DNA from: an uncultured Hyphomicrobiales bacterium
GTDB taxonomy: Bacteria; Pseudomonadota; Alphaproteobacteria; Rhizobiales; Devosiaceae
Direction of reading: 5' to 3'
NCBI GenBank assembly: GCA_903842455.1
Contig: CAIMLX010000249.1
Coordinates: 1-62,476 of the forward strand
DNA length: 62,476 bases
The stretch's first letter is position 1; each line of letters opens with the position of its first letter. Both the position numbers and the translations under genes were made by a program. Below the pieces are notes generated by a model. It had not been told where the DNA came from. It saw nothing but the letters and a program-made list of their open reading frames with translations, and made no database searches. Below are positions 29,623 to 48,674 of the stretch, one piece after another.

Positions 29623-29702
29623 GAATCCGCCCCGTTGCAACTGGGGCAAAACTGCATGAGATTGCGGCGAAATTCTCCCCCTGGGGTACGCGGCGCTACG
29701 AA

Positions 29703-30479: not shown

Positions 30480-30533
30480 GCCGCAAAGGGTTTAATTGTC
30501 CGCGTTGTTTTGCTATGGCGATTGCCGCAAGGC

Positions 30534-30610
30534 GGCCCCGTAGCTCAGTCGGATAGAGCGCAGGATTCCTAATCCTGAGGCCACGCGTTCGAATCGCGTC
30601 GGGGTCACCA
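30534..30610 (+). tRNA. tRNA-Arg(CCT)
   Basis: This is a 77-nt cloverleaf. The acceptor GGCCCCG pairs with CGGGGTC. The D-arm is TAGCTCAGTCGGATAGAGCG. The anticodon stem CAGGA/TCCTG encloses loop TTCCTAA with anticodon CCT. The T-arm is GCG-TTCGAAT-CGC, and the genome encodes ACCA at the end. Its last 38 bases are repeated at 46698-46736, so it served as an integration site. Confidence 0.97.
30573..30610 (+). repeat. Left attachment-like repeat (3' part of tRNA-Arg)
   Basis: These 38 bases, from TCCTGAGG to the terminal ACCA, are repeated in the same orientation at 46698-46736. Identity stops exactly at the CCA end, as expected for an island that entered at the tRNA 3' end. Confidence 0.85.
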
Positions 30611-30658
30611 GCTATCCGATTGAATTTCCTCCGCCATTGGAACTCGGCTGGATATCCG

Positions 30659-30688
30659 CTGAAACCGGCGAAAGGCCGGGTGTTTCAG
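30659..30688 (-). terminator. Hairpin at the end of treZ
   Basis: CTGAAAC and GTTTCAG arms with inner CCGGC/GCCGG-type pairing form a stem overlapping the treZ stop and facing the tRNA. There is no T-run, so termination is possible but unproven. Confidence 0.4.
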
Positions 30689-32520
30689 GACAGGTTTTCA
30701 ACTGCCTGGAAAAACAGGGCGCTCTCGGCGGGCAATATCCACACCTCGTCGAGGTCGACAGGTACCCGGCCAGCGCCGTTGAAGTCGGGGTGTTCGCTCG
30801 ACCAGCGGGCGACCCAGTGGTGTCCATCGGGCGGGGCGAGCAGCGGCTCGGGCAAGACATCCATGACGATATCGCGGCCCCAGTTGGCCAGCAGTAATCG
30901 ATCGTGTTCCGGCTGCTCCATCGAGTACCGCAGCGCCAGCGCAGCCTCCGCGAGCACCGCGCCATCGATGCGGGCGCCGCTCCTCTGCGAAAGCGCCAGA
31001 TGGCTGCGACGCAAAGCAATCAGTTCGCGGTGCAGAGCAACGACCCCGACATTGCTGTCGGCCTGCGTCCAGTCCAGCTTCGAGCGCTGAAAGGTGTCCG
31101 GATCGCAGGGGTCAGCAAGGCGCGCGGCCATTGCTGGATCCCGAACCGACTGGAACTGGCTCAGCATCTCCAGTCGTCCCGCCGCCACCTGCTTTGCAGC
31201 CGCTCCCTCACGGTCGAGGAAGTAAAGGAATGGGGTGACGGCGCCAAATTCCTCTCCCTGAAACAGACACGGTGTCTGCGGCCCGAGCAGCAGCAGGGTC
31301 GTAAAGGCCCGGATACGGGCTGGCGACGACAGGCTGCCCAACCGCGATCCATTGGCCGAATTGGCGATCTGATCGTGGTTTTCGAGAAAGTGCAGGAAGT
31401 GCCGTGGTGCGGTTAGCAGGTTGGGCGTTCCGTAGGGCCGGTTCCGCATGTTGGAGCGTTGACCCTGGTAGAGAAAGCCATGCTTGAGAGCTGACACCAG
31501 TTCCTGCGGGCTGCCCCGATAGTCGCGGTAGTAGAAGTCGCTATGCCCGGTCAGGCACACATGTGCGGCATGATGAAAATCATCATTGTACATGGCGTCG
31601 ATGCCGCAGCCGCCTCGCTCCGGCGGCTCGACCATTCGCCGCTCCTGCGGCTGGTTCTCGACGACCATGTAGATCTGCCGCGCACCCGCAGCCTTCCGTA
31701 CCGCCCGGGTGATCTCCGCCAGGATATGCTCGCTACTGGAATCGACGAGTTCCTGGACGGCGTCGATACGCAGGCCATCCAGATGGAACTCTTCGATCCA
31801 GTAGACCGCGTTCTGCACGAAGAAGTCTCTGACCGCACGCGACCGAGGGCCGTCGAAATTGAAGGCACGCCCCCACTCGCTGTGGCGATCGGCAAAGAAG
31901 TGCTCGCTGTAGGCACTGTAGTAGTCGCCGTAACCCGCGTGGTTGTAGACGACATCCAGGATGACGCCGATGCCAAGCTTGTGCGCCTGGTCGATGAAGG
32001 CGCGCATGTCGTCCGGCGTCCCGTAGGGTGCGAAAGGCGAAAAAGGCAAGGTCGTGTCGTAACCCCACCCGAAAGCCCCACCAAAGGAGCCGACGGGCAT
32101 GACCTGCAGCACCGTGACGCCCAGGTCGCGCAACCAGGCCAGCCGCGCGGCGGCCGCCAGCCAGGTACCTTCAGCGGTAAAGGTGCCGACATGCATTTCG
32201 TAGAGAACTTCGTCGCAGCCCTCCACCCCGTTCCAGGCGTTGTCGGTCCAGCCGAATGTGTTTGAAACGACCACCGAGGCGCCATCCGCGTCCTGCCGGC
32301 GCGACGCCAGATCGGGCAATCTGCCGCCATCGTCGAGATGGAACCAGTAGCGTGAACCGGCTGCGACCCCAGCGACGTCGACGCTGAACTCGCCGTCCCC
32401 GTTGCCGGCCATTTCAAACGAGCCCCGGCTGTCGACTTCGACCGTGGCGCGGGACTTTTCAGGTGCCCACAAGGAAAATCTGACCCCACCGGAATCTGGA
32501 ATGGCGCCCATGAGGATCAA
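30685..32520 (-). CDS. treZ: Malto-oligosyltrehalose trehalohydrolase
   Basis: TreZ releases trehalose from maltooligosyl-trehalose made by TreY. The 611-residue product starts at a TTG (32520) seven bases after GAAGGA; an ATG at 32511 is an alternative. An N-terminal CBM48-type beta domain (about 5-90) is followed by the GH13 barrel, with nucleophile Asp253 in 'GLRIDAV', acid Glu289 in 'VVENQ', and 'LENHDQIA' with His382-Asp383. 'GWGYDTTLPFSPFAPYG' is typical of TreZ rather than branching enzyme. TreY is absent from the window, so the substrate must come from elsewhere. Confidence 0.9.
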   Translation of the reverse strand: MILMGAIPDSGGVRFSLWAPEKSRATVEVDSRGSFEMAGNGDGEFSVDVAGVAAGSRYWFHLDDGGRLPDLASRRQDADGASVVVSNTFGWTDNAWNGVEGCDEVLYEMHVGTFTAEGTWLAAAARLAWLRDLGVTVLQVMPVGSFGGAFGWGYDTTLPFSPFAPYGTPDDMRAFIDQAHKLGIGVILDVVYNHAGYGDYYSAYSEHFFADRHSEWGRAFNFDGPRSRAVRDFFVQNAVYWIEEFHLDGLRIDAVQELVDSSSEHILAEITRAVRKAAGARQIYMVVENQPQERRMVEPPERGGCGIDAMYNDDFHHAAHVCLTGHSDFYYRDYRGSPQELVSALKHGFLYQGQRSNMRNRPYGTPNLLTAPRHFLHFLENHDQIANSANGSRLGSLSSPARIRAFTTLLLLGPQTPCLFQGEEFGAVTPFLYFLDREGAAAKQVAAGRLEMLSQFQSVRDPAMAARLADPCDPDTFQRSKLDWTQADSNVGVVALHRELIALRRSHLALSQRSGARIDGAVLAEAALALRYSMEQPEHDRLLLANWGRDIVMDVLPEPLLAPPDGHHWVARWSSEHPDFNGAGRVPVDLDEVWILPAESALFFQAVENLS

Positions 32521-32659
32521 CTGTCGTTCCTTCGAAAACTCTCCCTCAGGGGAGGATTGAAGCTATGTGCCCGACCGACGTTACGAGATACGCCGCGCTT
32601 GAGCCGGGTCCCGTGTCGGTAACGGAAATCCACATGGTGGAAGGCGGAGCGGTGAATCG

Positions 32660-33520
32660 TCAGATGCGGCTTTCAGGGACAGCCCCGTAACGCGCCGCCT
32701 GCCCGGCGAGCGCTGGCTCTACCTCATCGGTCACCACCGAGAAGTCGACCAGGGTGCTTGGCCCGAATTGCGTCGAAAGCGCTACATCGGTCGCGTCCCG
32801 GCCAATCCCCATGAGCACCCGTCCGATCCGCGGCGTGTTGTGCCGCGCGTCCGCCGTGTACCAGTGTCCGCCCAGGTAAACCTCCAGCCAGGCTGAAAAG
32901 TCCATCGGCGCTGGAGCCGCTGGAACGCCGATGTCGCCGAGATAGCCGGTGCAATAGCGGGCGGGAATGTTCATGCACCGGCAGAACGTAACAGCAAGAT
33001 GCGTGAAGTCGCGGCATACACCTACCCGTTCCCGATACGCCCCGAACGCGGTTCGCGTTCGGTTCGCGAGGGCATAGTCGAACCTGATATGGTGATGAAC
33101 GAAGTCGAGGATGGCTTGCACACGCGGCCAGCCGGGCTGCGTTGTCCCGAAGAGCTGCCACGCCTCATTCGACAGCAGGTCGGTCTCGCAGTATCGCGAC
33201 CCCAGCAGGTACAGCAGCGTGTCGTCGGGCAGGTCCTTGATGTCATGCTGCAGGGCGTCATGCGGTACATGGTCGGGCAAGCCCGAATCATAGACTTCGA
33301 ACGCGGTCGAAATGGACAGCCGCCCCGCCGGCGCCGTGAGGCGGGTGCAGACATTGCCGAAGCTGTCGACATAGTCCCAGCTGTCGACCGGCGGGGAGAA
33401 CGTCAGCACTTCGGGCGTCAACAGATCCATACGCCGAGACGGGTGCAGTTTGAGCGCCAGCATCGTCGGCGTCGGCTTGGGACATTCGTAGGCTATCGTG
33501 TAGCCGAGCTTGATCTGCAC
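32660..33520 (-). CDS. Transglutaminase-like protease-fold protein
   Basis: The GTG at 33520 follows AGGAGG by six bases and gives 286 residues beginning 'MQIKLGYTIAYECP'. An N-terminal beta domain (about 1-120) precedes the transglutaminase core: catalytic Cys in 'GVCRDFTHLAVTFCR', then the His and Asp expected in 'GHWYTADARHN'. Bacterial members often sit beside peptide-ligase-type genes and act as proteases or amidases in the cytoplasm; no such partner is here. It follows treZ in the same direction with 139 bases between. Confidence 0.88.
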   Translation of the reverse strand: MQIKLGYTIAYECPKPTPTMLALKLHPSRRMDLLTPEVLTFSPPVDSWDYVDSFGNVCTRLTAPAGRLSISTAFEVYDSGLPDHVPHDALQHDIKDLPDDTLLYLLGSRYCETDLLSNEAWQLFGTTQPGWPRVQAILDFVHHHIRFDYALANRTRTAFGAYRERVGVCRDFTHLAVTFCRCMNIPARYCTGYLGDIGVPAAPAPMDFSAWLEVYLGGHWYTADARHNTPRIGRVLMGIGRDATDVALSTQFGPSTLVDFSVVTDEVEPALAGQAARYGAVPESRI

Positions 33521-33822
33521 AGACACCCTCCTGACTTTTTCGCACACTGAACCAAGAACGAAGTCATCGTCCGTGTGTCGTGGCTAACAAGCTGCAGGGA
33601 GCCCAATGGTTCAACAACACTAGACCGAGGTCCTGGAGGCCGCCATGCCGGTCGACGTTCAGGCCCACGCTCGAGCCAGCCGTTGGTCGGCTATGCGCTC
33701 CGCATCAGTCGGAGAAGCAGCCAATGGATCCCACCACCACGACAGCGGGAGTACCGCTCTTTAGAGCACCGGCCTGCCCTCACAGTGGTGTAAGCATGGG
33801 CCTTCGATTGGAGGCCTGTGAA
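33521..33822. other. 302-bp gap with no supported gene
   Basis: Reading frames crossing this stretch have poor protein character. It must carry the promoters of the transglutaminase-like gene (leftward) and of the 77-residue gene (rightward). I see no EcfG-type promoter, terminator or RNA here. Confidence 0.5.
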
Positions 33823-34056
33823 ATGGCAGTAATGTATTTTTCTCAAGGCTTTCGGCTCAAGGGCCGGAAGCTGGAACCCGACTCTCCCCAGTCGGCCAAA
33901 TCACCCGAGGCAGCCATTGGCGCCGCTGAGCGGATAGCTCCTTCCCGTGCCGGCGTATGGGCCTACTCCGCCGCCATCGATGTCGAAACCGATAGCTACG
34001 ACGAGCCGGTGGTGCTGTTCAGATCCGGCACCCTGCCACCCGGTCTTGGGGAGTAG
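33823..34056 (+). CDS. Small soluble protein of unknown function, 77 aa
   Basis: The ATG at 33823 follows GGAGG and gives 77 residues; longer upstream extensions look non-coding. The sequence 'MYFSQGFRLKGRKLEPDSP' begins a compact domain with 'AAERIAPSRAGVWAYSAAID' and ends 'YDEPVVLFRSGTLPPGLGE'. This pattern recurs in small Hyphomicrobiales proteins of unknown role. There is no signal peptide or membrane segment. It sits in the island between the transglutaminase gene and a cluster of other very small genes. Confidence 0.7.
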   Translation: MAVMYFSQGFRLKGRKLEPDSPQSAKSPEAAIGAAERIAPSRAGVWAYSAAIDVETDSYDEPVVLFRSGTLPPGLGE

Positions 34057-34142
34057 CAAAGCCCGGATACCCACTTGCGATCCTGCTGACCTCACCTCTG
34101 GATCGGCATCGGGTCTCGATTTGACCAAGCCGGGCGCGCTCT

Positions 34143-34448
34143 CTACCGCTGGTCCTGGTAGCGAGACTTGGTCTCGCCCACGAGCTTTGCCAGCTCGGAA
34201 AACGGTTGGAGTTGGTCGTCACCACTCCCGTTATTGGCAAGCTGCAACAGTCGTGCGGCGAACGCCACCGCGTCCCGGTTTGCCGGGCTCATGGCCTCGA
34301 CGTTGTAGTCCCCGACGGCAGTTTGTTCGGCTTGGCTCAAAGCTCGGCCGACCTCTTCCCGAGTGACCAGCCCCTTGGAGACCAATAGCTCGGTCAGCGA
34401 TGCGATGACGAGGTACAGACCCTCGAGTTGCAGATTCGCGGTGTTCAT
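34143..34448 (-). CDS. Small hypothetical protein, 101 aa
   Basis: A good AGGAGA site precedes the ATG at 34448. The 101-residue product is mostly helical: 'LYLVIASLTELLVSKGLVTREEVGRALSQAEQ' forms a helix-turn-helix-like pair, although I do not claim DNA binding, followed by a second helical part 'NRDAVAFAARLLQLANNG' and a polar end. It has no signal peptide. It is the last gene of a leftward group of small genes with DUF3606. I do not recognise the family. Confidence 0.7.
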   Translation of the reverse strand: MNTANLQLEGLYLVIASLTELLVSKGLVTREEVGRALSQAEQTAVGDYNVEAMSPANRDAVAFAARLLQLANNGSGDDQLQPFSELAKLVGETKSRYQDQR

Positions 34449-34506
34449 CGCAGTCTCCTGAAGTCACGGTGTTGGGTCGTAGCTGGCCGCCTGGGTTCCA
34501 GACTGC

Positions 34507-34809
34507 TCATCCCGGGCTGCCGGGTCGTGGTGGCGGCCGGCGCTTCGGCTTGCCGTCGTGGATCGCGTCGTTCGGACCGATATCGTGTGCCGAAGGTGGA
34601 TTCGCGCCGCCGGGACGCACCTGCTTGTCGTAATGTTCCTCGTTCGAGGGGTGAGGATCGGCGACATCGTTGGCGGCGGTATCGTCGCCGGTCGGCAGTC
34701 CGTCGCGGGACTTTGGCAGTGGTCGCGCTTCGCCGTAGTCTCCCACGAGATGCTGCGGCTGGTTTGCGCCACCCGCCACCTCATCGGGGCGTTTCGCCTT
34801 CCCGGTCAT
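34507..34809 (-). CDS. Small hydrophilic, probably disordered protein, 100 aa
   Basis: The 100-residue product is rich in Pro, Gly, Asp, Asn, Lys and Arg, with no hydrophobic core, so it is likely disordered. Segments such as 'HPSNEEHYDKQVRPGGANPP' and the basic terminus 'KPKRRPPPRPG' resemble small stress-associated proteins of rhizobia. Its ATG overlaps the DUF3606 stop by four bases (ATGA), so both are made from one message. The EcfG-type promoter upstream of the pair suggests expression under general stress. The function is unknown. Confidence 0.65.
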   Translation of the reverse strand: MTGKAKRPDEVAGGANQPQHLVGDYGEARPLPKSRDGLPTGDDTAANDVADPHPSNEEHYDKQVRPGGANPPSAHDIGPNDAIHDGKPKRRPPPRPGSPG

Positions 34810-34985
34810 TTCGCGGCGTCCAGCTTGGCTTCGACCTTCTTGCGCGAGTTGCCGACCTGCTTGACGGCGTCCTTCACGGCCGACCTCGACGTGTCCGTCT
34901 TCTCGGCCTCATAGCGGACCTCATGATCCTGCCCGCCTGCCACCTTGGCCCGGTCCTGGGCCCGCCCTGGGTTGGAATTTGCCAT
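34806..34985 (-). CDS. DUF3606-type small protein, 59 aa
   Basis: The reading frame of 59 residues runs from the ATG at 34985, with GGAGGA just upstream, to a TGA at 34806. The sequence begins 'MANSNPGRAQDRAKVAGGQ' and continues 'HEVRYEAEKTDTSRSAVKD', matching the pattern of DUF3606 proteins ('QDR..V....YEVRYW..K' then a Val-Gly-x-Ser segment and a charged helix). These are small, basic and stress-induced in many alphaproteobacteria. An EcfG-type promoter lies 60 bases upstream. The stop overlaps the next gene by four bases. Confidence 0.82.
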   Translation of the reverse strand: MANSNPGRAQDRAKVAGGQDHEVRYEAEKTDTSRSAVKDAVKQVGNSRKKVEAKLDAAK

Positions 34986-35045
34986 TGTCAGTCCTCCTCG
35001 GGTTTTCGGCGCTCATCGTTCGACGCCGCCACATCGCAGATGAGC

Positions 35046-35070
35046 AACAAATGTCGAAAGGGGCAGTTCC
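35046..35070 (-). promoter_or_regulatory. EcfG-type (general stress) promoter for the DUF3606 operon
   Basis: On the minus strand GGAAC (35070-35066), 16 bases and TGTT (35049-35046) match the EcfG consensus GGAAC-N16/17-(C/T)GTT. The 5' untranslated region would be about 50 bases to the ATG at 34985. Confidence 0.65.
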
Positions 35071-35090
35071 ATCGGGGTTTCCACAACCGC

Positions 35091-35115
35091 GGAACCAACC
35101 GCTTGATGGCTTGTT
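35091..35115 (+). promoter_or_regulatory. EcfG-type promoter facing the 63-aa gene
   Basis: GGAAC (35091-35095), 16 bases and TGTT (35112-35115) lie on the plus strand, back to back with the promoter at 35046-35070. Transcription would start near 35122 and run into the gene at 35282. Confidence 0.6.
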
Positions 35116-35281
35116 TTCCCAGTGACCCTGCGTCACCTCTGCGGTCGTGACGTAGTCAAATGGCCATCGAACGGCCCGTTGGGAAACCGGCGGGCCGTAT
35201 CCGTGTCAGTTCGAATCCCGGCGGCGGGCTGCAACGAAAGATAACCTTCCGAAAGCGGCCGAAGCGGTCTAGCTCTCGTGC

Positions 35282-35473
35282 ATGGCCAAGTTTGATTTTC
35301 CTGTCATCGAGACCGACTTCCACCCGTTCAGACGGTGGCTGAAGGCGCGCGACCCGATGGCAGTTCTCACCTGTGAACCGGCGGACGGTGAACTCTGGAT
35401 GGTCACGGTAACGACCTCCAAGGCCTACCTTGCGCGTCCCTCGGAGCGCCGCTGGCGAGCCGGACGGACCTGA
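35282..35473 (+). CDS. Small hypothetical protein, 63 aa
   Basis: The 63-residue product ('MAKFDFPVIETDFHPFRRWL' to 'RPSERRWRAGRT') is soluble and basic at the C-terminus, with no recognised domain. The ribosome binding site is weak. Support comes mainly from the EcfG-type promoter 170 bases upstream in the right direction and from the absence of any competing gene. It could be a chance reading frame. Confidence 0.4.
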   Translation: MAKFDFPVIETDFHPFRRWLKARDPMAVLTCEPADGELWMVTVTTSKAYLARPSERRWRAGRT

Positions 35474-35512
35474 CCGTCTATCGTCGCAGGGGGCGCCGGG
35501 TCCCCCGCGTAC

Positions 35513-35890
35513 CTATGGGTGAAGCTGCAGCCGTTTCATCCTCGCGCCAAACTTGCCGGTATCGCCGGTAGGGCTGTCGACCAATTGCACGTTCGAGGGG
35601 CGTTCGCGGCAGGTGGCGCAGCGCAGAAATGGCACAATCTCGCGAAGCGTGATTCGCCAGCCTATTCGGGCCGCGAGCAGGCGCAGCGGCACCTGTTTTT
35701 CTCCGCAGGGGCAATTCACCGCCAGCCACCAGTTGGACATCTCGAAAATCGGCGTCGCCCATGGCACCCGCTCCGGGAACCCCTCGAGGCCGCCATCCGC
35801 AGGCGGGAGCGGAAACGCCGTCTCATCGGGATTGACCTGTCGAACCGCCATGGCTGTACGCACCCAACCGGGTGTTTTCCGATGCTTCAT
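35513..35890 (-). CDS. Small protein with a CxC/CxxC putative zinc-binding region, unknown
   Basis: The ATG at 35890 follows GGGAG and gives 125 residues; a longer version from 35980 lacks a good site. The C-terminal half holds 'NCPCGEKQVPL' and 'FLRCATCRERPSNVQLVD', four cysteines suited to one zinc ion. The 'RP-x-x-VQLVD' ending is a recurring feature of small Hyphomicrobiales proteins that I cannot name. It lies between the small-protein cluster and the SRAP gene and points left. Confidence 0.65.
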   Translation of the reverse strand: MKHRKTPGWVRTAMAVRQVNPDETAFPLPPADGGLEGFPERVPWATPIFEMSNWWLAVNCPCGEKQVPLRLLAARIGWRITLREIVPFLRCATCRERPSNVQLVDSPTGDTGKFGARMKRLQLHP

Positions 35891-36019
35891 TTGCGCTCCC
35901 TCGCTGGTGCGGGCAGGCAGCCGGTCGAGGACTCGGCACGCTGGCCCGCTGCAAATTACGAGAGAACGAAGCAGGAACACAAGCCGCGAGGGGTTGTGGC
36001 TCGGAGAGCCCGCGACACA

Positions 36020-36739
36020 CTAATTGCTGAACAGGGGCGGTTGCATCGGCAGCCTCAGGGGATCCCCACCTTCAGGCTCTCCATCAAGCACCGGCAACCA
36101 TTTGAGCGGCTGCTGCGCCACCACCTGGAGCGACCCGTCCGGCAGCGGTCGTTGCAGGGCCTTGGCCTCGCTCCACGGCGCGCGCAACCAGATGTCCCAC
36201 TCTTCCTCGGTGTTCAGCACCACTGGCATGGCCTTTGGGTGGATCGGCTTCACCTCGGCGTTGGGACTGGTGGTGAAGAAGGCGAAGACGTCGTGATCCA
36301 TCGGTCCTTCGTCCTTTCGGCGCACCCCATGCCAGGGCGTCCAGAGGCCAGCGAAGAACGAAACAGGCGCGTCCTCATCCAGCGCGAACCAGGCCCAGCC
36401 GGTTTTCCCGTCCGCCAGCTTCGTCGGCTCCGAGAAGCGGTTCCACGGCACGAGGCAGCGGTGCTCCGGCCCGAGATAGCCTTTCCAGTCCTCGAACCAC
36501 GGGTGCCGGACGTTCGTTGTGCCCTTGTTCGGCTTGTCGCTGGCGGGGTCCTTCAACGACGGCAGACCCCAGCGCGCCAGCTTCATCACCCGCCGGTCGT
36601 CGGCGAGCGTGCAGATCGGGGCGGTGTAGTCGGGATAGACCCCGTACAGTGGCGGTATGTTGCGAACAGCTCGATCCCAAACGGCGCGCAAGGCCCGCAT
36701 CGCCTCTTCGTTGGTGGTCATGCTGTAGAGGTTGCACAC
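36020..36739 (-). CDS. SRAP domain protein (YedK/HMCES-like abasic-site protein)
   Basis: SRAP proteins crosslink covalently to abasic sites in single-stranded DNA through Cys2 and so protect replication forks. I start at a GTG at 36739 so that Cys is residue 2 ('(M)[12 protein letters not shown]') once the initiator Met is removed, which the mechanism requires; upstream extensions would bury it. The product is 239 residues, near the family length. The catalytic-pocket residues are seen as Asn3, the Glu in '[12 protein letters not shown]' and the His in 'HPKAMPVVL'. Location beside ligD and ku makes a joint DNA-damage role likely. Confidence 0.92.
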
Positions 36740-36990
36740 GGAAATTCTCCCCGCTTTCGGACAATTGGACCTCAAGCCGGGGTGGCGCGCAACTGGACAC
36801 GGGGTTGCCTTCGCTCGACCTGCAACACTTTCGGTCTGGCCCAGGTCGGTGAGCCCTCGCAGGCGTTGCGCGCTTTGTTCGGAGCGGTCGCGAGCATCGA
36901 CGGAACAAAGTCGAGGAAATACCTGCGGGCTTAACCTTTGAAATATCCCGCCTCCCCGTGCCGTGCGCAGATCGCGCAGAGGAGACGCTA

Positions 36991-37224
36991 ATGTCCGACA
37001 CAATAGGAATAGTGGATGGCTGGGAGGTCCGAAGTCGCGAGGACGGCGGCTTCGGCGTTTACGATGGTCACGGCCTGGTTTCTGGCCCGCATTGGTCGAA
37101 GACCGAGGCGATCGGCGCCGCGCTGAAGCTGCCACGGTCCATCTCGGTGGCGGCCTATCTGCGCGATCGGCCCTGCAAGGCCGCGTCGAGCTCCGCCCAG
37201 CCCGACAGCCGCATCGCGGAATAA
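36991..37224 (+). CDS. Small hypothetical protein, 77 aa
   Basis: The ATG at 36991 follows GAGGAGA and gives 77 residues, '[20 protein letters not shown]' and so on. The middle '[28 protein letters not shown]' looks like a small beta-alpha domain in which a short repeat domain meets a helix. It has no membrane or signal sequence. It is transcribed toward ligD and away from the SRAP gene. I do not recognise a family; similar proteins seem confined to alphaproteobacteria. Confidence 0.65.
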
Positions 37225-37264
37225 TCCGTAAACGAGGCAAGGAGCGACGATTCGTGATGGACCC

Positions 37265-39832: not shown

Positions 39833-39862
39833 TCTTGCTGACTCCTACAAAACCCACCAGCC

Positions 39863-39887
39863 AACGCTCGGTCGCGCGCCTCGTTCC
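39863..39887 (-). promoter_or_regulatory. EcfG-type promoter of ligD
   Basis: On the minus strand GGAAC (39887-39883), 16 bases and CGTT (39866-39863) form a perfect EcfG consensus about 30 bases before the ligD ATG at 39832. Confidence 0.75.
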
Positions 39888-39927
39888 TGACGCCGGGAAG
39901 TCCGCACGTCTCCCGGAAATGCCGGTC

Positions 39928-39953
39928 GGAACGCGGGGCGCAGGCAGATCGTT
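39928..39953 (+). promoter_or_regulatory. EcfG-type promoter of the first ku gene
   Basis: GGAAC (39928-39932), 17 bases and CGTT (39950-39953) form a perfect EcfG consensus 27 bases upstream of the ku ATG at 39981. Back to back with the ligD promoter, it would let one sigma factor switch on both genes. Confidence 0.75.
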
Positions 39954-39980
39954 TGCACTCCAACTCAGGGGAGATGAAAA

Positions 39981-40880
39981 ATGCCGGCACGTGCTGTTTG
40001 GAAGGGGGTCATCAAGATCGCCGAGGTGGTCTGTCCAGTGGCCATGTATACCGCCGCCTCGACCTCCGAGCGCCTCGCTCTGCATCTGGTAAACCGCGAC
40101 ACCGGCAATCGTCTCCGCCGGGTCTATGTCGACGAAAAAACCGACAAGCCCGTCGAGTCCGAGGATCAGGTCAAAGGCTACGAGACCAGCGAAGGCAAGT
40201 ACGTCGTCCTCGAGCCCGAGGAGATTGCCGCGGCGGTGCCCGACAGCGACAAGACGCTGACGGTTGACGAGTTCATCGCCTGCAATCGCATCGAGCCGAC
40301 CTACTTCGACAAGCCCTACTACCTGCTTCCGGCGTCCGAAGTCGCTGAGGAGACGTTCGTGCTGATCCGCGAGGCTCTGCGCGCGCGGAAGGCCGCAGCG
40401 ATCGCCCACACGGTGCTTTTTCGCCGCTTGCGGCCAGTGCTGATCCGGGCTCACCGCAAGGGGTTGATCGCTACCACCCTCAATTTCGACTACGAGGTGC
40501 GATCGGCCAAGGAGGCCTTCACCGGCATCACCGCGCACAAGATTGATCCCGAGATGCTGCAGCTGGCCCAGCACATCCTCAAGACCAAGGCTGGCACCTT
40601 CCAGCCCGAGAAGTTCGACGACCGCTACGAGGCCGCGCTCAACGAACTGGTGCAAGCGAAGATCAAGGGCAAGAAGATCGTCCCCATCAGGCAGCCCAAG
40701 GCGACAAAGAAGAACGACCTGCTGGAGGCGCTGCGTCTAAGCGCCGGCGGCAAGGGCGCTGAAGTCGACAAGCCGGCATCGACGCGCAAGGCAAAGTCCC
40801 CGGCCAAAGCCAAACCGGCCAAAGCGAAGGCAAAAGCTCCGGCCCATGCGGTGCCGCTCGCCCGCCGCAAGGCTGGCTAG
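39981..40880 (+). CDS. Ku protein (NHEJ), copy 1 with long basic tail
   Basis: Bacterial Ku is a homodimeric ring that binds DNA ends and recruits LigD. This 299-residue copy begins 'MPARAVWKGVIKIAEVVCPV', the Ku core start, followed by 'GYETSEGKYVVLEPEEI', 'EPTYFDKPYYLLP' and a long central beta-barrel region. The last 45 residues are almost only Lys, Ala, Pro and Arg ('AKSPAKAKPAKAKAKAP'), a disordered DNA-binding tail of the kind found in some Ku proteins. GGGGAG precedes the ATG. The stop is one base from that of the second ku gene, which points the other way. Confidence 0.95.
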   Translation: MPARAVWKGVIKIAEVVCPVAMYTAASTSERLALHLVNRDTGNRLRRVYVDEKTDKPVESEDQVKGYETSEGKYVVLEPEEIAAAVPDSDKTLTVDEFIACNRIEPTYFDKPYYLLPASEVAEETFVLIREALRARKAAAIAHTVLFRRLRPVLIRAHRKGLIATTLNFDYEVRSAKEAFTGITAHKIDPEMLQLAQHILKTKAGTFQPEKFDDRYEAALNELVQAKIKGKKIVPIRQPKATKKNDLLEALRLSAGGKGAEVDKPASTRKAKSPAKAKPAKAKAKAPAHAVPLARRKAG

Positions 40881-40881
40881 C

Positions 40882-41700
40882 TCAGTGGGCCTTCCGCGGC
40901 TTCCCCGGCTTGCCTTCGAGACTCTTCTTGAGGGCTGCCATCAGATCGATGACGTTTGACGGGGCAGCCGTCTCGGTATCTTCCTCGGCCTTGGCCCTGG
41001 GCTTCTTCCTGGTCGACTGCTTGGCCTTGATGATGTCGAGCAGCTTGTCCTGCACCGGGTCCTTCACCATCGCCTCGGACCAGTTCGTGGTCCGGTCGTC
41101 GATCAGCTTTTTGACCATCGACATCATCTTGGCGTCGGGCTTCTCGTCCCTCACACTCTTGAAATACTCGTCCTCGTCCCGGACCTCGTCACCGTAGCGC
41201 AGCGTCCACAGAATGATGCCGTTGTCCCAGGGCTGCAGCATCACTGCCCGTTCGCGGTTGCCGAGAACCAGGCGGGAAATCCCGACCACATCGCTTTTGG
41301 CCCTGGCCTCGCGGATGACAGTGAACGCCTCGGCGCCGACGTCATCGGCGGGCACGACGAAATAGGGGCTGTCGTAATACACCCACTCGATGGTGTCCGC
41401 TTCCACGAACTCATCCACATCGATGGTCCGCACGCTATCGAGCTTCACCGCGTCGAGTTCATCGTCCTCGAGCAAAACGTAGTCGTCCTCGCCCTTCTCA
41501 TAGGCTTTCACCTGGTCGTCCTGCTCCACCGTGCGATGCGACTCTGCATCCTGATATCGGGTGTAAATCCGATCGCCGGTCTTCCGGTTGATGGTGTGGA
41601 ACTTCACCCTGCTGCCCTCGGTCGTTGCCGGCGACAGCGTCACGGCGCAGGTCACCAGCGAGAGCTTCAGGTAGCCTTTCCAGTAAGGACGAACAGCCAC
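40882..41700 (-). CDS. Ku protein (NHEJ), copy 2
   Basis: The GTG at 41700 follows GGAGGT and gives 272 residues starting '(M)AVRPYWKGYLKLSLVTCAV', the canonical Ku N-terminus. Core segments 'YEKGEDDYVLLEDDELDAV', 'EWVYYDSPYFVVP' and 'VGISRLVLGNRERAV' are present. The C-terminus has the minimal 'NVIDLMAALKKSLEG' element associated with LigD binding, then a short basic end. It clearly differs from copy 1 outside the core, so the two are old paralogues and may form a heterodimer or act under different conditions. An EcfG-type promoter is upstream. Confidence 0.96.
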   Translation of the reverse strand: MAVRPYWKGYLKLSLVTCAVTLSPATTEGSRVKFHTINRKTGDRIYTRYQDAESHRTVEQDDQVKAYEKGEDDYVLLEDDELDAVKLDSVRTIDVDEFVEADTIEWVYYDSPYFVVPADDVGAEAFTVIREARAKSDVVGISRLVLGNRERAVMLQPWDNGIILWTLRYGDEVRDEDEYFKSVRDEKPDAKMMSMVKKLIDDRTTNWSEAMVKDPVQDKLLDIIKAKQSTRKKPRAKAEEDTETAAPSNVIDLMAALKKSLEGKPGKPRKAH

Positions 41701-41730
41701 GGTGACCTCCGAGAATTCAGGTGTCAGGAC

Positions 41731-41756
41731 AACGCGGTGCCGTTGCCGCACGTTCC
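41731..41756 (-). promoter_or_regulatory. EcfG-type promoter of the second ku gene
   Basis: On the minus strand GGAAC (41756-41752), 17 bases and CGTT (41734-41731) form a perfect match about 31 bases before the GTG start at 41700. Confidence 0.75.
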
Positions 41757-41893
41757 AGCTCTCGCGCCCTCCTCTCGGCGACGATCAGCCCTTTGGGGTG
41801 AGGATTTCAGGAGCACGAAACGGCTTCCGTCCATTGATGGCAGGTTCGAACAGCCATTAGGTATGCCCAGCGCATCGCAATCAGGAGCTTGCA

Positions 41894-42736
41894 ATGAGTC
41901 ACCCGGGCACGACCGTCGACACCAGTGGCTACGGGCTCAAGCCCGGCGGCTATACCGCTCGCCGCATATCCAGTGCTCTGGTGCCCGATGGTCGTGCGCG
42001 CGGCCCGATCTGGGATGCCGCCGAAAGGACCCCACGCTTCGTGGACATGCTGACGGGTGACCCGGCCCCGTTGGCGACCACATCCGCGATCGTGTGGGAC
42101 GATCGCGCCCTCTACATCGCCTTCTGGGCCGACGAGCCCAACATCGTGGCAACCATGGACGAGCGGGACTCGCTGCTGTTTTTCGAGAACGACCTCGAGA
42201 TCTTCATCGACGGCGGCGACACCTATTATGAACTCGAGTTCAACGCCAAGGGGACCCTCTACGAGGTGTTCTACATCTGGCGCGATGCCTACGCCCGAGG
42301 GGGAAAGTGGGACATACCCCGCTTCGACGTGCTGCAGCCGGGCGCAAGGACGTTCAACGGCGACTTTGCCCTCGACCGCCAAAACTTCTGGACCGGCAAC
42401 CACCCCCGCGGGCCACGCTGGGCGTTCCTGGACTATGATCTGCCCGGACTGGAAGTCCATGTGCATGTCGATGGCACGCTGAACGACCCGGCGTCCCTTG
42501 ATCATGGCTGGTCGGCGGAGATCGTCATCCCGTGGAGCGGGCTCACCGATCTCGCCAATGGTCGGTCCCTGCCGCCTCGGCCCGGTGACACCTGGGGCAT
42601 CTTCATGGGGCGTTTCGAGCAACTGCGAACGCGGGGACCTGCCGAGGTCGCGACAGCCGGCTGGTCAGCGCATCGGTTCGGCGTCGCTGACACCCACGTC
42701 CCGGAATGCTTCACCCAGGTGACATTCGTCGCATAG
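41894..42736 (+). CDS. Carbohydrate-binding family 9-like protein
   Basis: The 280-residue protein matches the CBM9-like fold: 'YTARRISSALVPDGRARGPIWDAAERT' at the N-terminus, 'SAIVWDDRALYIAFWADEPNI', 'FFENDLEIFIDGGDTYYELEFNAKGTLYEVF' in overlapping blocks, and a terminal 'GIFMGRFEQ'. There is no signal peptide, so it would be cytoplasmic or exported by another route. It stands in the island between the second ku gene and a 302-bp gap. The ligand is unknown; sugar binding is inferred from the fold alone. Confidence 0.82.
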   Translation: MSHPGTTVDTSGYGLKPGGYTARRISSALVPDGRARGPIWDAAERTPRFVDMLTGDPAPLATTSAIVWDDRALYIAFWADEPNIVATMDERDSLLFFENDLEIFIDGGDTYYELEFNAKGTLYEVFYIWRDAYARGGKWDIPRFDVLQPGARTFNGDFALDRQNFWTGNHPRGPRWAFLDYDLPGLEVHVHVDGTLNDPASLDHGWSAEIVIPWSGLTDLANGRSLPPRPGDTWGIFMGRFEQLRTRGPAEVATAGWSAHRFGVADTHVPECFTQVTFVA

Positions 42737-43038
42737 TCAGAGTGTGTGGCCCGAGGACCGGAAAAAAAGGGCGGCGCGGCGAGGGCGCACTGCGACCGTC
42801 GTTCGAGGGCGGCCGGGCGTAGCAAAGCGCCATTGGTCAGATCGGTTCGCAGGCGGAGGATCGCTGGCCGAAGGACTCCTCGATGGCCTCGTCGCGCCCA
42901 AACCAATCGGCCCAGTCCTCTAGAGACTTTCGAGGCGATGTCTGCGTTGCAGGCTCCAGGCTTATCGAGCCAAGACCTGATTTGTGGGGTATGTTCCCGA
43001 TCGCAGGGTTCCGGGAATGGGTGCCAGCGCGGCGATGC
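42737..43038. other. 302-bp gap with no supported gene
   Basis: Between the CBM9-like gene and the end of the CHASE2-EAL gene no reading frame, hairpin with T-run, or RNA is convincing. Genes on both sides end here, so no promoter is required. Confidence 0.5.
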
Positions 43039-45360
43039 TCAAGCGACCTGCCGGGTTACACCCAGCAGTTGCTCGAAGGCGGCGCCCGAGATCGGCCGGC
43101 CGAACAGCCACCCCTGGCAGACATCGCAGCCCATCGCCGCCAGGATCGCCCGTTGTTCCTCGGTTTCGACGCCCTCGGCCACGGTGACCTTGTCCAGCTG
43201 GCGGGCCAACGCCACGGTGCTTTCGACGATGGCTCTGTCGGCGGCGCCAGCCGCCAGCCGGCGCACAAAGCTCTGGTCGATCTTCAACTTGTCGAACTCG
43301 AGTTCGCTGAAATAACTCAGCGACGAATAACCGGTGCCGAAATCGTCGATGGCAATGCCCACGCCAAGCCGGCGGATGTCAGCCAGGCGTTGCGCGAGGC
43401 AGGGGTCGCCACTGGCCAGCGCACTCTCGGTAATCTCGATATCGAGCCGCCGAGGATCGAACCCGGTTTCAAGCAGGGCGTCGGCCAGTCTCTCGGCTAC
43501 GTCACTGAGCCGCATCTGGGTCACCGAGACGTTGACTGCCATTCGCCCCGACCATTGCCAGCGCGCCGCTGCCCGGCAGGCCTCGAGGAGGACGAACCGC
43601 CCGAGTTCGACGATCAGTCCGTTCTCCTCGGCGAGCGGGATGAATTCGGTCGGCGAGATGGCGCCGAACTCCGGACTGGTCCAGCGCAGCAGCGCCTCCG
43701 CCCCAACCAGTTCCCCATCGATTGTTCGTACCTGCGGTTGGAAGACGACCGACAGTTCGTTCCGCTCCACCGCCGAACGAAGCGCGATGTCCAGCTTCCG
43801 GCGCCGCTCCAGCGTCATCTCCAAGCCTGCAGTGAACGTCAGCAGGGCGGGTTCCGACGTTGCCGCTGCGGCCTGCAGGGCCAACTCGGCCTCGCGCAGC
43901 AGCTGCAGCGCTGTGCTGCCCGGGGCGGGCAGCGCCGCGCCCAGCACCGCATCGACATGCACCATGTGTCCCTCGACTGCCAGCACCGGTTTCACGGCCT
44001 GGCGGACCTGCCCGGCCAGTTCGTCGAGCGCGATGGCGGCGTCGCCCGGAGGGATGGCGAAGGCAAATACGTCTCGCTCCAGCACCGCCGCCGTGCCGAT
44101 GCCGAGCAACTCGAAGCGTCTGGCCACTGCCCGCAGCGCAGCGTCCGCAACCTCGACGCCCAGGGTCGCCCGCACCAGGTCGAGGCGCGTGAGCGCGACG
44201 AGAAGAAGCGGCCCCTGCGGCGCACCCTGCAGGTGCTCCAGCAGTCCGATGCGCGATGGCAACCCGGTGACGGCGTCATGGCGGGCAAGATAGATCAGCC
44301 TCGCCTCGGCCTGCCGTCGGCGGGTAAACTCCGAGGCCAGGGCTGACCCCAGATGCAGCCCCAGGAGACAAAGCACCGCGACCATGAAGCCGCCCAGTTG
44401 GATCGTCACCGCGAACCACGCCTGCAGCACGAAAGACACTGCGACCGCGAGGCAGATCACCCCGGCGGCGACGGCAATCGCCCGACCCGCCCGGTGGACC
44501 GGACCAGTCACCGCCCAGAGCAGGGCCAGCGTCAGGGCCAGTATCGCCGCCGGGACCTGCCCGAGTTGCACCAGCGAGCGATTGGCCTTCAGCGTCTCTG
44601 CCCCGGCGATCTGCAGCAGTGGTCCGGGGAGCAGGCCGTAGCGCGGCACGAAAAATGTATCCTTCAACTCGATCGCACTCGCACCGACGACGACCTGGCG
44701 ATCGGCAATCCGGCCGGGATCAACGGCGCCGCGCAGAATGTCTCGCACCGAAATGCGGTCGATGGTCCCGAGGTCGATGCCGAAATCGACGTTGATCTGA
44801 TCGGGTGGCGGTGTGCCGCTCAGCGCCAGGGCCATCGAGGGAATGCCCCGCGAGGCAGTGCGGATGCTCTCCACCAGGCCATCGGGACGCGGGAGAACGT
44901 TCACCAGTGCGCTGTCGGCGTGATCCGCAAACTCGGGGATGGGCTGGTTGAGGTGCAGGGCGCCCATGGCGGCATTGATCTGTTCGAATGCCGCCAGCAT
45001 GGTGAAGCCGCCAGCCGCCTCGAGCGCGCTCGTAAAGGCAGCGTCGGCCGATGGGTTGGATCGAGCCGAGAAATCGATGTCGAACGCCACGAGCGCGGCG
45101 TCGGCTTCCACCAGCTTGTCGAGCAGTTCGGCATGGACCTCGCGCGGCCACGGCCAGACCCCGACTTCGGTGAGAGTGGCGCTGTCGATATTCGCGAAAA
45201 CCAGGTCGCCGCTTGCCGGACGGGAGAGCAGGTTGAAGCGTGCATCTTCAAGCAGCCGATCGAGCGAATTGAACGCGCCGACGCTGGCCGCGGCAAGCGC
45301 CGCAACCACCACCAGTGTTGACAAGCCGATGCGATATGCGAACGCCAAGCCCAGCCCCAC
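43039..45360 (-). CDS. CHASE2 sensor protein with degenerate GGDEF and intact EAL domain
   Basis: This 773-residue protein (GTG start at 45360) should be an inner-membrane c-di-GMP phosphodiesterase. Domain order is: one N-terminal helix (about 10-30), a periplasmic CHASE2 domain (about 35-270), three helices (about 275-350), GGDEF-like (about 365-520), EAL (about 530-770). The GGDEF signature is replaced by 'LERDVFAF', so cyclase activity is unlikely. EAL keeps 'GAEALLRW', 'NVSVTQ', 'ITESAL', 'IDDFGTGYSSLSY', 'KIDQSFV', 'AEGVET' and 'CQGWLFGRP', so hydrolysis is likely. It is divergent from fecR-type gene 45687, with a CtrA box between. Confidence 0.92.
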   Translation of the reverse strand: MGLGLAFAYRIGLSTLVVVAALAAASVGAFNSLDRLLEDARFNLLSRPASGDLVFANIDSATLTEVGVWPWPREVHAELLDKLVEADAALVAFDIDFSARSNPSADAAFTSALEAAGGFTMLAAFEQINAAMGALHLNQPIPEFADHADSALVNVLPRPDGLVESIRTASRGIPSMALALSGTPPPDQINVDFGIDLGTIDRISVRDILRGAVDPGRIADRQVVVGASAIELKDTFFVPRYGLLPGPLLQIAGAETLKANRSLVQLGQVPAAILALTLALLWAVTGPVHRAGRAIAVAAGVICLAVAVSFVLQAWFAVTIQLGGFMVAVLCLLGLHLGSALASEFTRRRQAEARLIYLARHDAVTGLPSRIGLLEHLQGAPQGPLLLVALTRLDLVRATLGVEVADAALRAVARRFELLGIGTAAVLERDVFAFAIPPGDAAIALDELAGQVRQAVKPVLAVEGHMVHVDAVLGAALPAPGSTALQLLREAELALQAAAATSEPALLTFTAGLEMTLERRRKLDIALRSAVERNELSVVFQPQVRTIDGELVGAEALLRWTSPEFGAISPTEFIPLAEENGLIVELGRFVLLEACRAAARWQWSGRMAVNVSVTQMRLSDVAERLADALLETGFDPRRLDIEITESALASGDPCLAQRLADIRRLGVGIAIDDFGTGYSSLSYFSELEFDKLKIDQSFVRRLAAGAADRAIVESTVALARQLDKVTVAEGVETEEQRAILAAMGCDVCQGWLFGRPISGAAFEQLLGVTRQVA

Positions 45361-45686
45361 CGGTCAACCGCTGGCGCCACGCATTGTGCATGTCACTTAC
45401 GAGACCGTTCCGCCCTGACTCTGCCACGAGGAGTCCAGCGGGCCATTAACATGGATTGCCGCTCGCGATGATGGTTAAGGCCCGCTTAACCGGCTCGATA
45501 GCGGCCTGATCCCCGACCCAGGCGCCGCTTGGTGATCGGCGCATTTCGATGATCGATCTTTGGCGCCCATTAATCCAAAATCGACCAGCGTGGCACCCGT
45601 TAACGTTTCAGAAAACGCCGCTCGCGCAAACATTCCTCCCAACAGTGAAGCGTCGCGCTGTCAAGATTCGACCTTTGAGGGGCAGA
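45361..45686. other. 326-bp divergent promoter region with a CtrA box
   Basis: The gap separates the divergent CHASE2-EAL and FecR genes. It contains the CtrA-type box described at 45475-45489 and is locally less GC-rich. No gene is supported here. Both promoters must lie in it. Confidence 0.6.
45475..45489. promoter_or_regulatory. CtrA-type binding site
   Basis: TTAA-GGCCCGC-TTAA is a perfect TTAA-N7-TTAA CtrA consensus and sits inside a longer palindrome GGTTAA/TTAACC. Lying between divergent genes, it could tie both to the CtrA cell-cycle and motility programme. Confidence 0.6.
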
Positions 45687-46445
45687 ATGCTCTTGCGTGT
45701 ATGGCTTGCCGCGCTGTGTTTCAGCGCATTATCGACGATTGCTCTGGCTGACGATTGGGCGGCGGTCAAACTGCGTGGCCAGGTCTTTCAGTTGGTCGAC
45801 AACGAGTGGCAGCCGCTCAAGCGCGGCGACGTCGTGCCCGACGACCGGGTGCTCCGCACGCTCCGGAACGGCCGGGTGGAACTGCATCGCGACGGCGAAG
45901 TCATCTCGCTCGGGCCACACACACAGGTGCAGATCGTTGACCGGACCGGACGGCGCTTCACCACGGTGAAGCAGCATTTCGGTGTGGTGGCGGTCGAAGC
46001 CGAGGTGCAGAACGTCGAACACTTTGCGGTGCAGACGCCCTTCGTCGCCGCCGTGGTCAAGGGCACCCGTTTCACCGTCCGTTCCGGCGAAGACTGGTCC
46101 AGGGTCGAGGTGCAGCGTGGCCGGGTTGCTGTCGAAAGCGAAATGACGCACGCGACCACCATGGTCTCGGCCGGCCAATCTGCCGCCGCGACCACCACCA
46201 CAGAGTTGACGGTGACCGGCAGGGGTGAACTGCCTCCCGTCATCGGTGCCAACGGCAAGATCATCCCCAAAGAGCACGGCCACCACAACAAAGCGGGCGA
46301 CGCAGCCAAGGCGGCGGACAAACTGGCAAAGACGGCCGAAAAGGCCGCCGAAAAAGACACGAAGGCCGCCGAGAAGGCCGCCAATGAGAGCCCGAAGCCC
46401 AAAGATAACGCAGCGAAGGGCAGCGGCAAGAAGGGCGACAAATAA
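45687..46445 (+). CDS. FecR-domain periplasmic protein
   Basis: The ATG at 45687 follows GAGGGG and gives 252 residues. A signal peptide (about 1-22, ending 'TIALADD') is followed by a FecR domain (about 25-160): 'RVLRTLRNGRVELHRDGEVISLGPHTQVQI', 'QTPFVAAVVKGTRFTV' in blocks, and 'VEVQRGRVAVES'. The last 60 residues are Lys/Ala/Glu-rich repeats ('AADKLAKTAEKAAEKDTKAAEKAA'-type), a helical tail. FecR-domain proteins of this kind commonly accompany CHASE2 enzymes; here the partner is the divergent CHASE2-EAL gene. No TonB receptor or ECF sigma gene is nearby. Confidence 0.88.
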   Translation: MLLRVWLAALCFSALSTIALADDWAAVKLRGQVFQLVDNEWQPLKRGDVVPDDRVLRTLRNGRVELHRDGEVISLGPHTQVQIVDRTGRRFTTVKQHFGVVAVEAEVQNVEHFAVQTPFVAAVVKGTRFTVRSGEDWSRVEVQRGRVAVESEMTHATTMVSAGQSAAATTTTELTVTGRGELPPVIGANGKIIPKEHGHHNKAGDAAKAADKLAKTAEKAAEKDTKAAEKAANESPKPKDNAAKGSGKKGDK

Positions 46446-46785
46446 GCCGACCGCGGCGAAGAGCGCGGCCCGACTGACGCCGGGGCGCATGTCGGCGATT
46501 GCCTTGGCGATCGACGATTCGGTGCTGGCGGCCGGCACCGTGGCGGCACTGAGCAAACTGCATAAAATCGATGGAAAACCTTGTCCGGAAGGTTGAACGT
46601 GGCTACAGCGTTAGCGCGAAAGGCAGCTGAGGCCCCCTCGGCTGCCGGATCGGGTGGCCCGGACCATCGGGATTGAGCACTGCCTTCGGATTGATTGTCC
46701 TGAGGCCACGCGTCTCGAATCGCGTCGGGGTCACCACCGCTTTCATCTCGCTCCGGGCCCGGCCACACCCGAAGGAATGCCTTAC
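46446..46785. other. 340-bp gap containing the right island end
   Basis: No gene is supported. The stretch carries the tRNA-Arg 3' repeat at 46698-46736, which marks the right boundary of the island, and the promoter of the CAP-domain gene that follows. Confidence 0.7.
46698..46736 (+). repeat. Right attachment-like repeat (tRNA-Arg 3' remnant)
   Basis: These 39 bases are identical to the last 38 bases of tRNA-Arg(CCT) except for one inserted C in the T-loop (GTCTCGAATC instead of GTTCGAATC). It lacks the 5' part of the tRNA and is not a gene. It is in the same orientation as the tRNA, 16 kb away. Confidence 0.88.
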
Positions 46786-47253
46786 ATGACCGCACGAAAC
46801 CTCTTCCGCCTCACCCTCGCCGGCGGTCTCGCCGTGGCGCTGGCTGCCTGCTCCATGGGGGGCGGCGCGCCGCTGTCCGAAGGGCTGACCACGCCGATGA
46901 ACCGGCCGGGCGCCCAGTTGAACCGCGTCGAAGCGCTGTTCCTGCTCAACGACTATCGCCGCCAGAACGGCGCCAGTGACCTGCGCGGCGATACGGTGCT
47001 CGATTCGACCGCCCAGGCGCTGGCCCAGAACTATGCCAAGTCGGGCGCCCAGCCGACGCTGCCGGCGGGAGCCACCGTGATGCGCCTGTCCGCCGGCTAT
47101 GCCACCTTCGCCGAAGTGTTCTCCGGCTGGCGTGCCGTGCCGGCAGATGCTGCCGCGCTTGCCAACCAGGGCGTCGGCCGGGCTGGCCTCGGCGTAGTGT
47201 ACGAACCCGCCTCGGTGAACGGCGTCTACTGGGTGCTGGTGCTTGCCCCCTGA
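46786..47253 (+). CDS. CAP-domain lipoprotein (SCP/PR1 family)
   Basis: The ATG at 46786 follows GAAGGA and gives 155 residues. The N-terminus has a lipoprotein signal with lipobox LAAC near residue 21. The mature part is a short CAP domain: 'LNRVEALFLLNDYRRQNGASDLRGDTVLDSTAQALAQNYA' in blocks, then 'YATFAEVFSGW' and the C-terminal 'GVVYEPASVNGVYWVLVLAP'. The usual CAP histidines are not obvious, so metal binding is doubtful. It is the first gene to the right of the island. The TusA-like gene overlaps its 3' end by 11 bases. Confidence 0.82.
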   Translation: MTARNLFRLTLAGGLAVALAACSMGGGAPLSEGLTTPMNRPGAQLNRVEALFLLNDYRRQNGASDLRGDTVLDSTAQALAQNYAKSGAQPTLPAGATVMRLSAGYATFAEVFSGWRAVPADAAALANQGVGRAGLGVVYEPASVNGVYWVLVLAP

Positions 47254-47473
47254 GACCATCGACTGCCGGGGGCTGAAATGCCCCCTGCCCGTCCTCAAGC
47301 TCGAAAAGCGGGTTGAAGCTGCCGTGCCGGGCACGGTGCTGATCGTGCTCGCCACCGATCCGATGGCAAAGATCGACATTCCGCTCTACTGCCGCCAGCA
47401 CGGCCACGCCTGCGAGGCGTCGAGCGAGGATGGCGTGCTGCGCTTCGAGGTAAGGCGGGGAGCGACGCCGTAG
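47243..47473 (+). CDS. TusA-like sulfurtransferase family protein
   Basis: From a TTG at 47243, inside the CAP gene, a 76-residue protein reads 'MPPETIDCRGLKCPLPVLKLEK'. The CPxP motif with its sulfur-carrying cysteine is intact, and the small beta-alpha fold matches TusA/YedF. TusA relays sulfur for tRNA thiolation and molybdopterin synthesis. The 11-base overlap suggests translation coupled to the CAP gene. It is convergent with the dacF-type gene, 12 bases apart. Confidence 0.88.
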   Translation: MPPETIDCRGLKCPLPVLKLEKRVEAAVPGTVLIVLATDPMAKIDIPLYCRQHGHACEASSEDGVLRFEVRRGATP

Positions 47474-47485
47474 GGCGTCCCCGCC

Positions 47486-48568: not shown

Positions 48569-48674
48569 GGCGCCTCCGGATGCAGTTGCTGGAGCGGCCT
48601 GCTTCTAGCAACCGGAGGCGCGGTGCTCAATGACCGATGTCCGAGGTCAAAGGATTTTGAACCCGCCGGCGACC

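Follow-up and report, generated by a model that had tools for sequence, protein, structure and literature searches.

A tRNA-borne genomic island carrying a predicted second end-joining system on the chromosome of a Devosiaceae bacterium

The window analysed here is the whole of a 62,476-nt contig (C249) from the 4.56-Mb draft genome (280 contigs) of an uncultured Hyphomicrobiales bacterium of the Devosiaceae, designated G000. Directly behind an intact tRNA-Arg(CCT) gene, the window contains 16,126 bp that are absent from the same site in the sister genome G001. This segment is very probably a genomic island of the chromosome, acquired laterally when site-specific recombination inserted it at the 3' end of the tRNA gene. 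Its main cargo, as predicted from sequence, is a second non-homologous end-joining (NHEJ) system composed of LigD and two different Ku proteins. That the segment was acquired by insertion at the tRNA, and that an integrase is absent from it, is well supported.

ARAGORN and Rfam agreed on the tRNA gene, which remains intact and is followed, in the same orientation, by a direct repeat of its 3' end (Table 1). The right-hand repeat aligned with tRNA bases 40-77 at 97% identity, with one inserted base, and ended at the identical CCA, as an earlier note on this DNA had described. The sister tRNA does not contain the extra base, and the insertion therefore probably arose in the displaced copy, which would not be under selection. 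Two occurrences of the last 23 tRNA bases were found in the window at up to 3 mismatches, a number reached in 0 of 100 shuffles. A genome-wide search with the 151-base tRNA region returned three places: the tRNA itself, the right-hand copy, and one match of 74% over 74 bases that we take to be another tRNA gene. The repeat is thus not scattered over many unrelated loci, an outcome that the earlier note had named as fatal to its proposal. Among the tRNA matches listed at E <= 0.001 in the genus, the 3' end of the tRNA was partially duplicated in G000 only, and G007 and G013 each had one 25-base copy of the tRNA 5' end. No tandem repeats and no third copy of the repeat were found in the window; the absence of a third copy ruled out islands arranged in tandem with further att copies inside. 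Immediately ahead of the right repeat, GGATT at 46688-46692 matches the tRNA bases that precede the anticodon; this is possibly part of an element attachment site, or chance.

The empty site was reconstructed by joining window 28001-30610 to 46737-49000 and aligning the product to sister G001, which gave a single 4,879-bp match at 85% identity. The match of a query that spanned the left flank and the adjoining part of the island ended at 30610, the CCA end, and that of a query spanning the far end of the island and the right flank began at 46698. The bases between were either inserted here or lost with equal precision in the sister. In the sister the CAP-domain gene directly follows the tRNA, which is the arrangement the earlier note had predicted for an empty site. 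The genus (g1) comprises 19 genomes, G000 and the 18 congeners G001-G018, in which occupancy was judged by the distance from the tRNA to a peptidase gene. This gap was 0.73-0.94 kb in 13 of the 18 (G001-G006, G008, G009, G011, G012 and G015-G017), compared to 16.9 kb here. Four more congeners had an altered site that was also free of the island: the gap was 1.3 kb in G007; HD-domain and enolase-like genes lay between tRNA and CAP in G010 (gap ~3.4 kb); the CAP gene lay ~0.16 kb after the tRNA in G014, with the peptidase on a different contig; and G018 had a rearranged site in which cobS/cobT genes follow the tRNA. In G013 the site was not found. The island was therefore absent from all 17 congeners in which the site was located, against the possibility, also raised in the earlier note, that all close relatives carry it. 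The emptiness is exact at the repeat in G001 and rests on gap length across the 13. The composition of the segment also differs from that of its surroundings: GC of 30611-46697 was 0.637, against 0.661 and 0.663 in the flanks (2.5 points lower), and its tetranucleotide distance to the flanks (0.157) exceeded that of three equal flank windows (0.087-0.114).

Both components of a two-component NHEJ system, Ku and a three-domain LigD, scored over curated cut-offs on the island (Table 1). The start of ku2 was placed at the GTG at 41700 because the longer open reading frame (ORF), extending to 41751, would run into the gene's own promoter motif. A resident LigD, 41% identical to the island LigD, lies with a Ku on contig C45 of G000 and has a sister counterpart on C193. 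The island proteins would rejoin double-strand breaks without a template, beside this resident Ku-LigD pair, and Ku1 and Ku2 may pair with each other. Elsewhere in G000, a stand-alone primase-polymerase domain (C226, 9154-10113; L154) shares 80% identity with the C-terminal region of the island LigD, and similar lone domains occur in G001 (82%), G016 (72%) and G012 (68%).

The island LigD has moved laterally, because its tree conflicts with the core tree. The core tree, built from eight core proteins (13 rows, three of them less than half filled), placed the window's genome and G001 as sisters and grouped G009 with G006. In the LigD tree (20 rows picked among matches in a family-level search of 136 genomes), the window and G009 were sisters (100/100) inside a group of G004, G005, G002, G008 and G015. 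The constraint suggested by the core tree, that LigD of G009, G006 and G007 stand together, was rejected (p-AU 3e-41; 3e-5 with G013 added). G009 LigD was 78% identical to the island LigD, compared to a core median of 66% (10 proteins); for G004, G005, G008, G015 and G006, LigD identity departed from the core median by no more than ~4 points (8-16 proteins each).

The LigD-Ku-Ku cassette travels from genome to genome independently of the island. The G009 cassette (L137) resembles that of the window in its proteins (LigD 78%, Ku1 79%, Ku2 75%) and in exact EcfG-type motifs on all three genes, but its order is LigD-Ku2-Ku1, with LigD flanking the Ku pair from the opposite side, its neighbors include Mn catalase, BrkB and DUF6766, and there is no tRNA in the 20 kb around it. 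Tail-to-tail Ku pairs occur twice in G005 and on three Devosiaceae plasmids, those of Devosia neptuniae, Devosia sp. A8/3-2 and Pelagibacterium sp. H642. The plasmid pairs (Ku1 78-81%, Ku2 72-75%) have exact motifs on all six genes, but unlike the island they have no LigD match in the ~37 kb read; A8/3-2 Ku1 is not annotated and was matched in three pieces. On the Pelagibacterium plasmid (L281), the Ku pair, an EAL gene, glgX, treY and treZ stand in one row at 17992-30241, with no LigD match nearby. LigD lies between two Ku genes on Paracoccus plasmid pAK1 and in G090, and next to the NHEJ cassette of G090 (L221) are treZ and a probable treY, a gene with an alpha-amylase domain. Genes for Mn catalase, alcohol dehydrogenase and SRPBCC/polyketide-cyclase proteins adjoin the cassettes of both pAK1 (L283) and G009, which suggests a recurring neighborhood. 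Sixty phage records matched LigD, none over 80% of the query, and the ten listed of these cover 34-35% of it (the ligase part) at 36-39% identity. To compare whole loci, 16 in-frame island proteins were searched against 111 loci (LigD, congener and other-genus tRNA loci and plasmid stretches, many spanning at most 10 kb each side of LigD), and the 16-kb block was not seen elsewhere as a unit among them. The suggestion that the locus is a vehicle moving a complete end-joining system thus holds for the cassette, which is at another site in G009 and whose Ku pair is on plasmids without LigD and in other company, and not for the island as a unit.

Each of the three island NHEJ genes has a GGAAC-N16/17-CGTT motif near its start, and PMC7083833 gives GGAAC-N16-CGTT as the EcfG consensus. 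An exact scan for GGAAC-N15..18-CGTT on both strands found four sites in the window, three of them 27-30 nt before ligD, ku1 and ku2. When 250 nt upstream of 26 NHEJ starts were examined, several of these being alignment starts and not annotated, an exact motif was present at 22, always at 13-42 nt, where 0.4 were expected from the rate in 13 of those loci; in G005 it was present at four of four. The resident Ku-LigD pair on C45 had no motif within 250 nt of its approximate starts, and none lay upstream of island treZ or the EAL gene. The anti-sigma factor NepR is present in G000. EcfG control of the island NHEJ genes is therefore predicted from motifs, and LigD, Ku1 and Ku2, each behind its own motif, would be expressed on activation of the general stress response. 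The NHEJ of Sinorhizobium meliloti is reportedly stress-inducible (Dupuy 2019). That species has four ku and five ligD copies, and resembles the window in its multiple copies and in the stress induction that is predicted here; it differs in that the window genes lie on a bounded chromosomal island and that their stress control is deduced solely from the motif.

In agreement with the earlier note, Pfam searches of the island ORFs, not every small one included, turned up no integrase, transposase or conjugation gene. A search for an integrase relic, by tblastn with 97 ORFs out of 40 integrase loci and with one profile, was also negative in the island: the best tblastn E was 0.007, 0 of the 97 queries reached 1e-3, and the profile's best was 0.86. 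As a control, the same set of 97 was run on a XerD-like region, which 23 of them matched at 1e-3 or better (best E 3e-11). Relaxase and other genes of integrative and conjugative elements (ICEs) or mobilisable elements were not found among the Pfam-scanned ORFs, though no search aimed at relaxases was made, and an ICE was ruled out by the lack of integrase, relaxase and conjugation genes among these ORFs. A PHROGs search with 10 island ORFs gave only families of unknown function, matching SRAP and the EAL protein, and a prophage was ruled out by the lack of structural phage genes. PADLOC on 10 ORFs gave only a GlgB model matching treZ, and an anti-phage defence island was ruled out by the lack of known defence genes. 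Islands targeted to tRNA genes by tyrosine integrases, catalogued in Islander, are a known class. The window island shares with them the intact tRNA, the 3' end displaced as a direct repeat, the empty site in a relative and the accessory cargo; it differs in having no integrase and in a cargo centred on a complete NHEJ system. Its own integrase was not found, and it is therefore termed only an integrase-less island.

The same tRNA site is used in another genus. At 16 tRNA-Arg(CCT) loci of other genera, taken from the family-wide matches listed, a CAP match lay downstream in nine, at 0.2 to 10.9 kb, and sugar-kinase and potassium-sensor genes occurred in such intervals, not all of which need be mobile DNA. 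G116 (L231), of another genus, is an integrase-bearing user of this site. Like the island, its ~9-kb phage-like element lies between this tRNA and the CAP gene, and the CAP gene is preceded by 45 bases that repeat the 3' half of the tRNA, starting in the anticodon loop and ending in CCA, with 5 mismatches. It differs in having tyrosine-integrase, capsid and tape-measure genes, and none of the island proteins matched it. The search for an island version with an integrase beside this tRNA, suggested in the earlier note, led to an integrase-bearing occupant in another genus, though one whose cargo is phage-like and unrelated. At E <= 1e-15, members of the G116 integrase family were present in 31 of the 136 family genomes. 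An integrase-like ORF in L234 may be XerD and was not counted. Among the genus-wide matches listed, G000 had nine PF00589 places, none beside tRNA-Arg(CCT); the nearest, at 2120-2644, lies 28 kb upstream of the tRNA and looks like core XerD, because 11 of the 18 congeners have their strongest PF00589 place on the contig that carries the tRNA.

Several observations weigh against our reading of the locus. The recombinase is deduced from its footprint, neither an integrase nor attP nor a circular form having been seen, and the G116 integrase family had no match in G000 at E <= 1e-15. The count of EcfG-type motifs in the window is weak evidence alone, because the four found (1.7 expected) were equalled or exceeded in 8 of 100 shuffles. 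The motif was absent at four of the 26 starts, namely ligD of G090 and of G004, each with a ku just upstream, and two resident genes; the 26 starts left out ligD of G005, G008, G015, G006, G007 and Paracoccus. It is very improbable that the block is ancestral and was lost in the other congeners. These number only 18, several of them fragmented, yet such a history would need the sister to have lost the block precisely at the repeats, base for base, and the loss to have recurred in no fewer than 13 of the 18, and the only congener match of treZ at E <= 1e-100 is one of 40% in G015. Slighter still is the chance that unrelated contigs were joined at the short repeat. The genome is a draft in 280 contigs, but a mis-join by the assembler is unlikely because the longest exact run common to both repeats is 22 bases, and, of the family genomes searched, one in the same genus has the closest LigD.

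Under the preferred reading, site-specific recombination into the tRNA 3' end would have brought the island into the chromosome, the insertion presumably made by a tyrosine integrase that was later deleted or acted from elsewhere, and the cargo would have been left fixed. The earlier note's account of capture, fixation and integrase loss agrees with the empty site and the LigD tree in respect of lateral acquisition; integrase loss is conjecture, as is action in trans. One variant, which may well be correct though we place it a little below even, is that a larger integrative element or plasmid integrated at the tRNA and then shed the genes for integrase and transfer through internal deletion, so that the cargo is a remnant. 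The 510-kb Pelagibacterium plasmid, with its Ku pair, EAL gene, glgX, treY and treZ, is consistent with this, as are the Ku pairs on two Devosia megaplasmids and the lack of a visible treY beside island treZ, as if the pair had been broken. However, the Pelagibacterium treZ and EAL proteins are distant (39% and 30%) and the plasmid stretches have no LigD; therefore, no plasmid seen is the direct source. A second variant, which we consider rather unlikely, is that the island never had an integrase and was a passive element moved in trans by that of another element using the same tRNA. The control region was detected and no relic was seen in the island, the G116 element shows that an integrase uses this tRNA, and G000 has its nine PF00589 places; yet none is beside the tRNA, the nearest looks like core XerD, and a clean deletion would likewise leave no relic.

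The island is ordinary in kind, and its interest is the chromosomal import of NHEJ. In a broad survey based on abnormal word usage (PMC7719229), NHEJ was found in a horizontally acquired part of the chromosome in no bacterial genome, and NHEJ components were on plasmids in 60 genomes. The locus offers a boundary-exact counter-example, in which NHEJ was taken into the chromosome via a tRNA site in an event resolved to the base. No NHEJ genomic island appeared among the papers listed in a literature search that covered mainly freely available articles. With a conserved stress-type promoter motif on a repair cassette that moves laterally, it becomes possible to test whether stress is linked to gene gain. 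A bolder idea, which we regard as doubtful, is that general-stress-controlled NHEJ is travelling cargo in Devosiaceae (island, megaplasmids and several chromosomal sites) that favors its own kind of transfer, with the island as one capture fixed at a tRNA. If so, stressed cells that rejoin and capture foreign ends would favor the gain of further DNA.

Table 1 Features of the island and its boundaries (window coordinates)
Feature	Coordinates	Strand	Evidence
tRNA-Arg(CCT), intact, insertion target	30534-30610	+	ARAGORN 30534-30610; Rfam 30534-30607
Left repeat, last 38 tRNA bases	30573-30610	+	part of tRNA-Arg(CCT)
Inserted segment, 16,126 bp, absent at this site in sister genome	30611-46736		empty-site alignment
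treZ, malto-oligosyltrehalose trehalohydrolase	30685-32520	-	TIGR02402 542.7 bits, cut-off 538.8
Transglutaminase-like protein	32660-33547	-	PF01841
DUF3606 small protein	34806-34985	-	PF12244; one-mismatch EcfG-like site ~61 nt upstream
SRAP protein (SOS-response-associated peptidase)	36020-36742	-	PF02586
LigD: 3'-phosphoesterase, ligase, primase-polymerase domains	37265-39832	-	TIGR02776 and NF004628 over cut-off
EcfG-type motif of ligD, 30 nt before start codon	39863-39887	-	GGAAC-N16-CGTT exact
EcfG-type motif of ku1, 27 nt before start codon	39928-39953	+	GGAAC-N17-CGTT exact
Ku1	39981-40880	+	TIGR02772 264.3 bits, cut-off 150
Ku2, tail-to-tail with Ku1	40882-41700	-	TIGR02772 274.3 bits for longer ORF (to 41751)
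EcfG-type motif of ku2, 30 nt before GTG at 41700	41731-41756	-	GGAAC-N17-CGTT exact
CBM9-like protein	41894-42736	+	weak PF06452, below cut-off
CHASE2-GGDEF-EAL cyclic-di-GMP protein	43039-45360	-	PF05226, PF00990, PF00563
FecR-domain protein	45549-46445	+	PF04773
Displaced tRNA 3' end, one base inserted; right boundary	46698-46736	+	repeat match; one-sided alignment to sister starts exactly here
CAP-domain gene, right flank; directly follows tRNA in sister	46786-47253	+	domain and sister alignment

The remaining cargo includes several small ORFs with no assigned role. To call everything on the island stress-related, as had been done, is too strong, since the EAL/GGDEF, FecR and CBM9-like proteins and several small ORFs have no known role of that kind. 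The origins of the cargo look mixed, judging by nearest relatives: TreZ is closest to proteins of Devosia (genus g5; best 63-64%), the EAL protein to one of G008 (55%), and the CBM9-like protein to congeners, which carry it at other sites (77%), with matches in 12 of the 136 family genomes, all of genus g1. Beyond LigD and Ku, the transglutaminase, SRAP, CBM9-like and FecR proteins and six other small ORFs had no match in the 111 loci; treZ and the EAL protein were each matched in six, and DUF3606 in two. In one Devosia genome (G087, contig C94; L220), a treZ at 3-1802 (58%) is located 0.7 kb beyond the 3' end of a tRNA-Arg(CCT) at 2507-2583. That treZ is on the strand of its tRNA, whereas the window treZ is on the strand opposite to its own.

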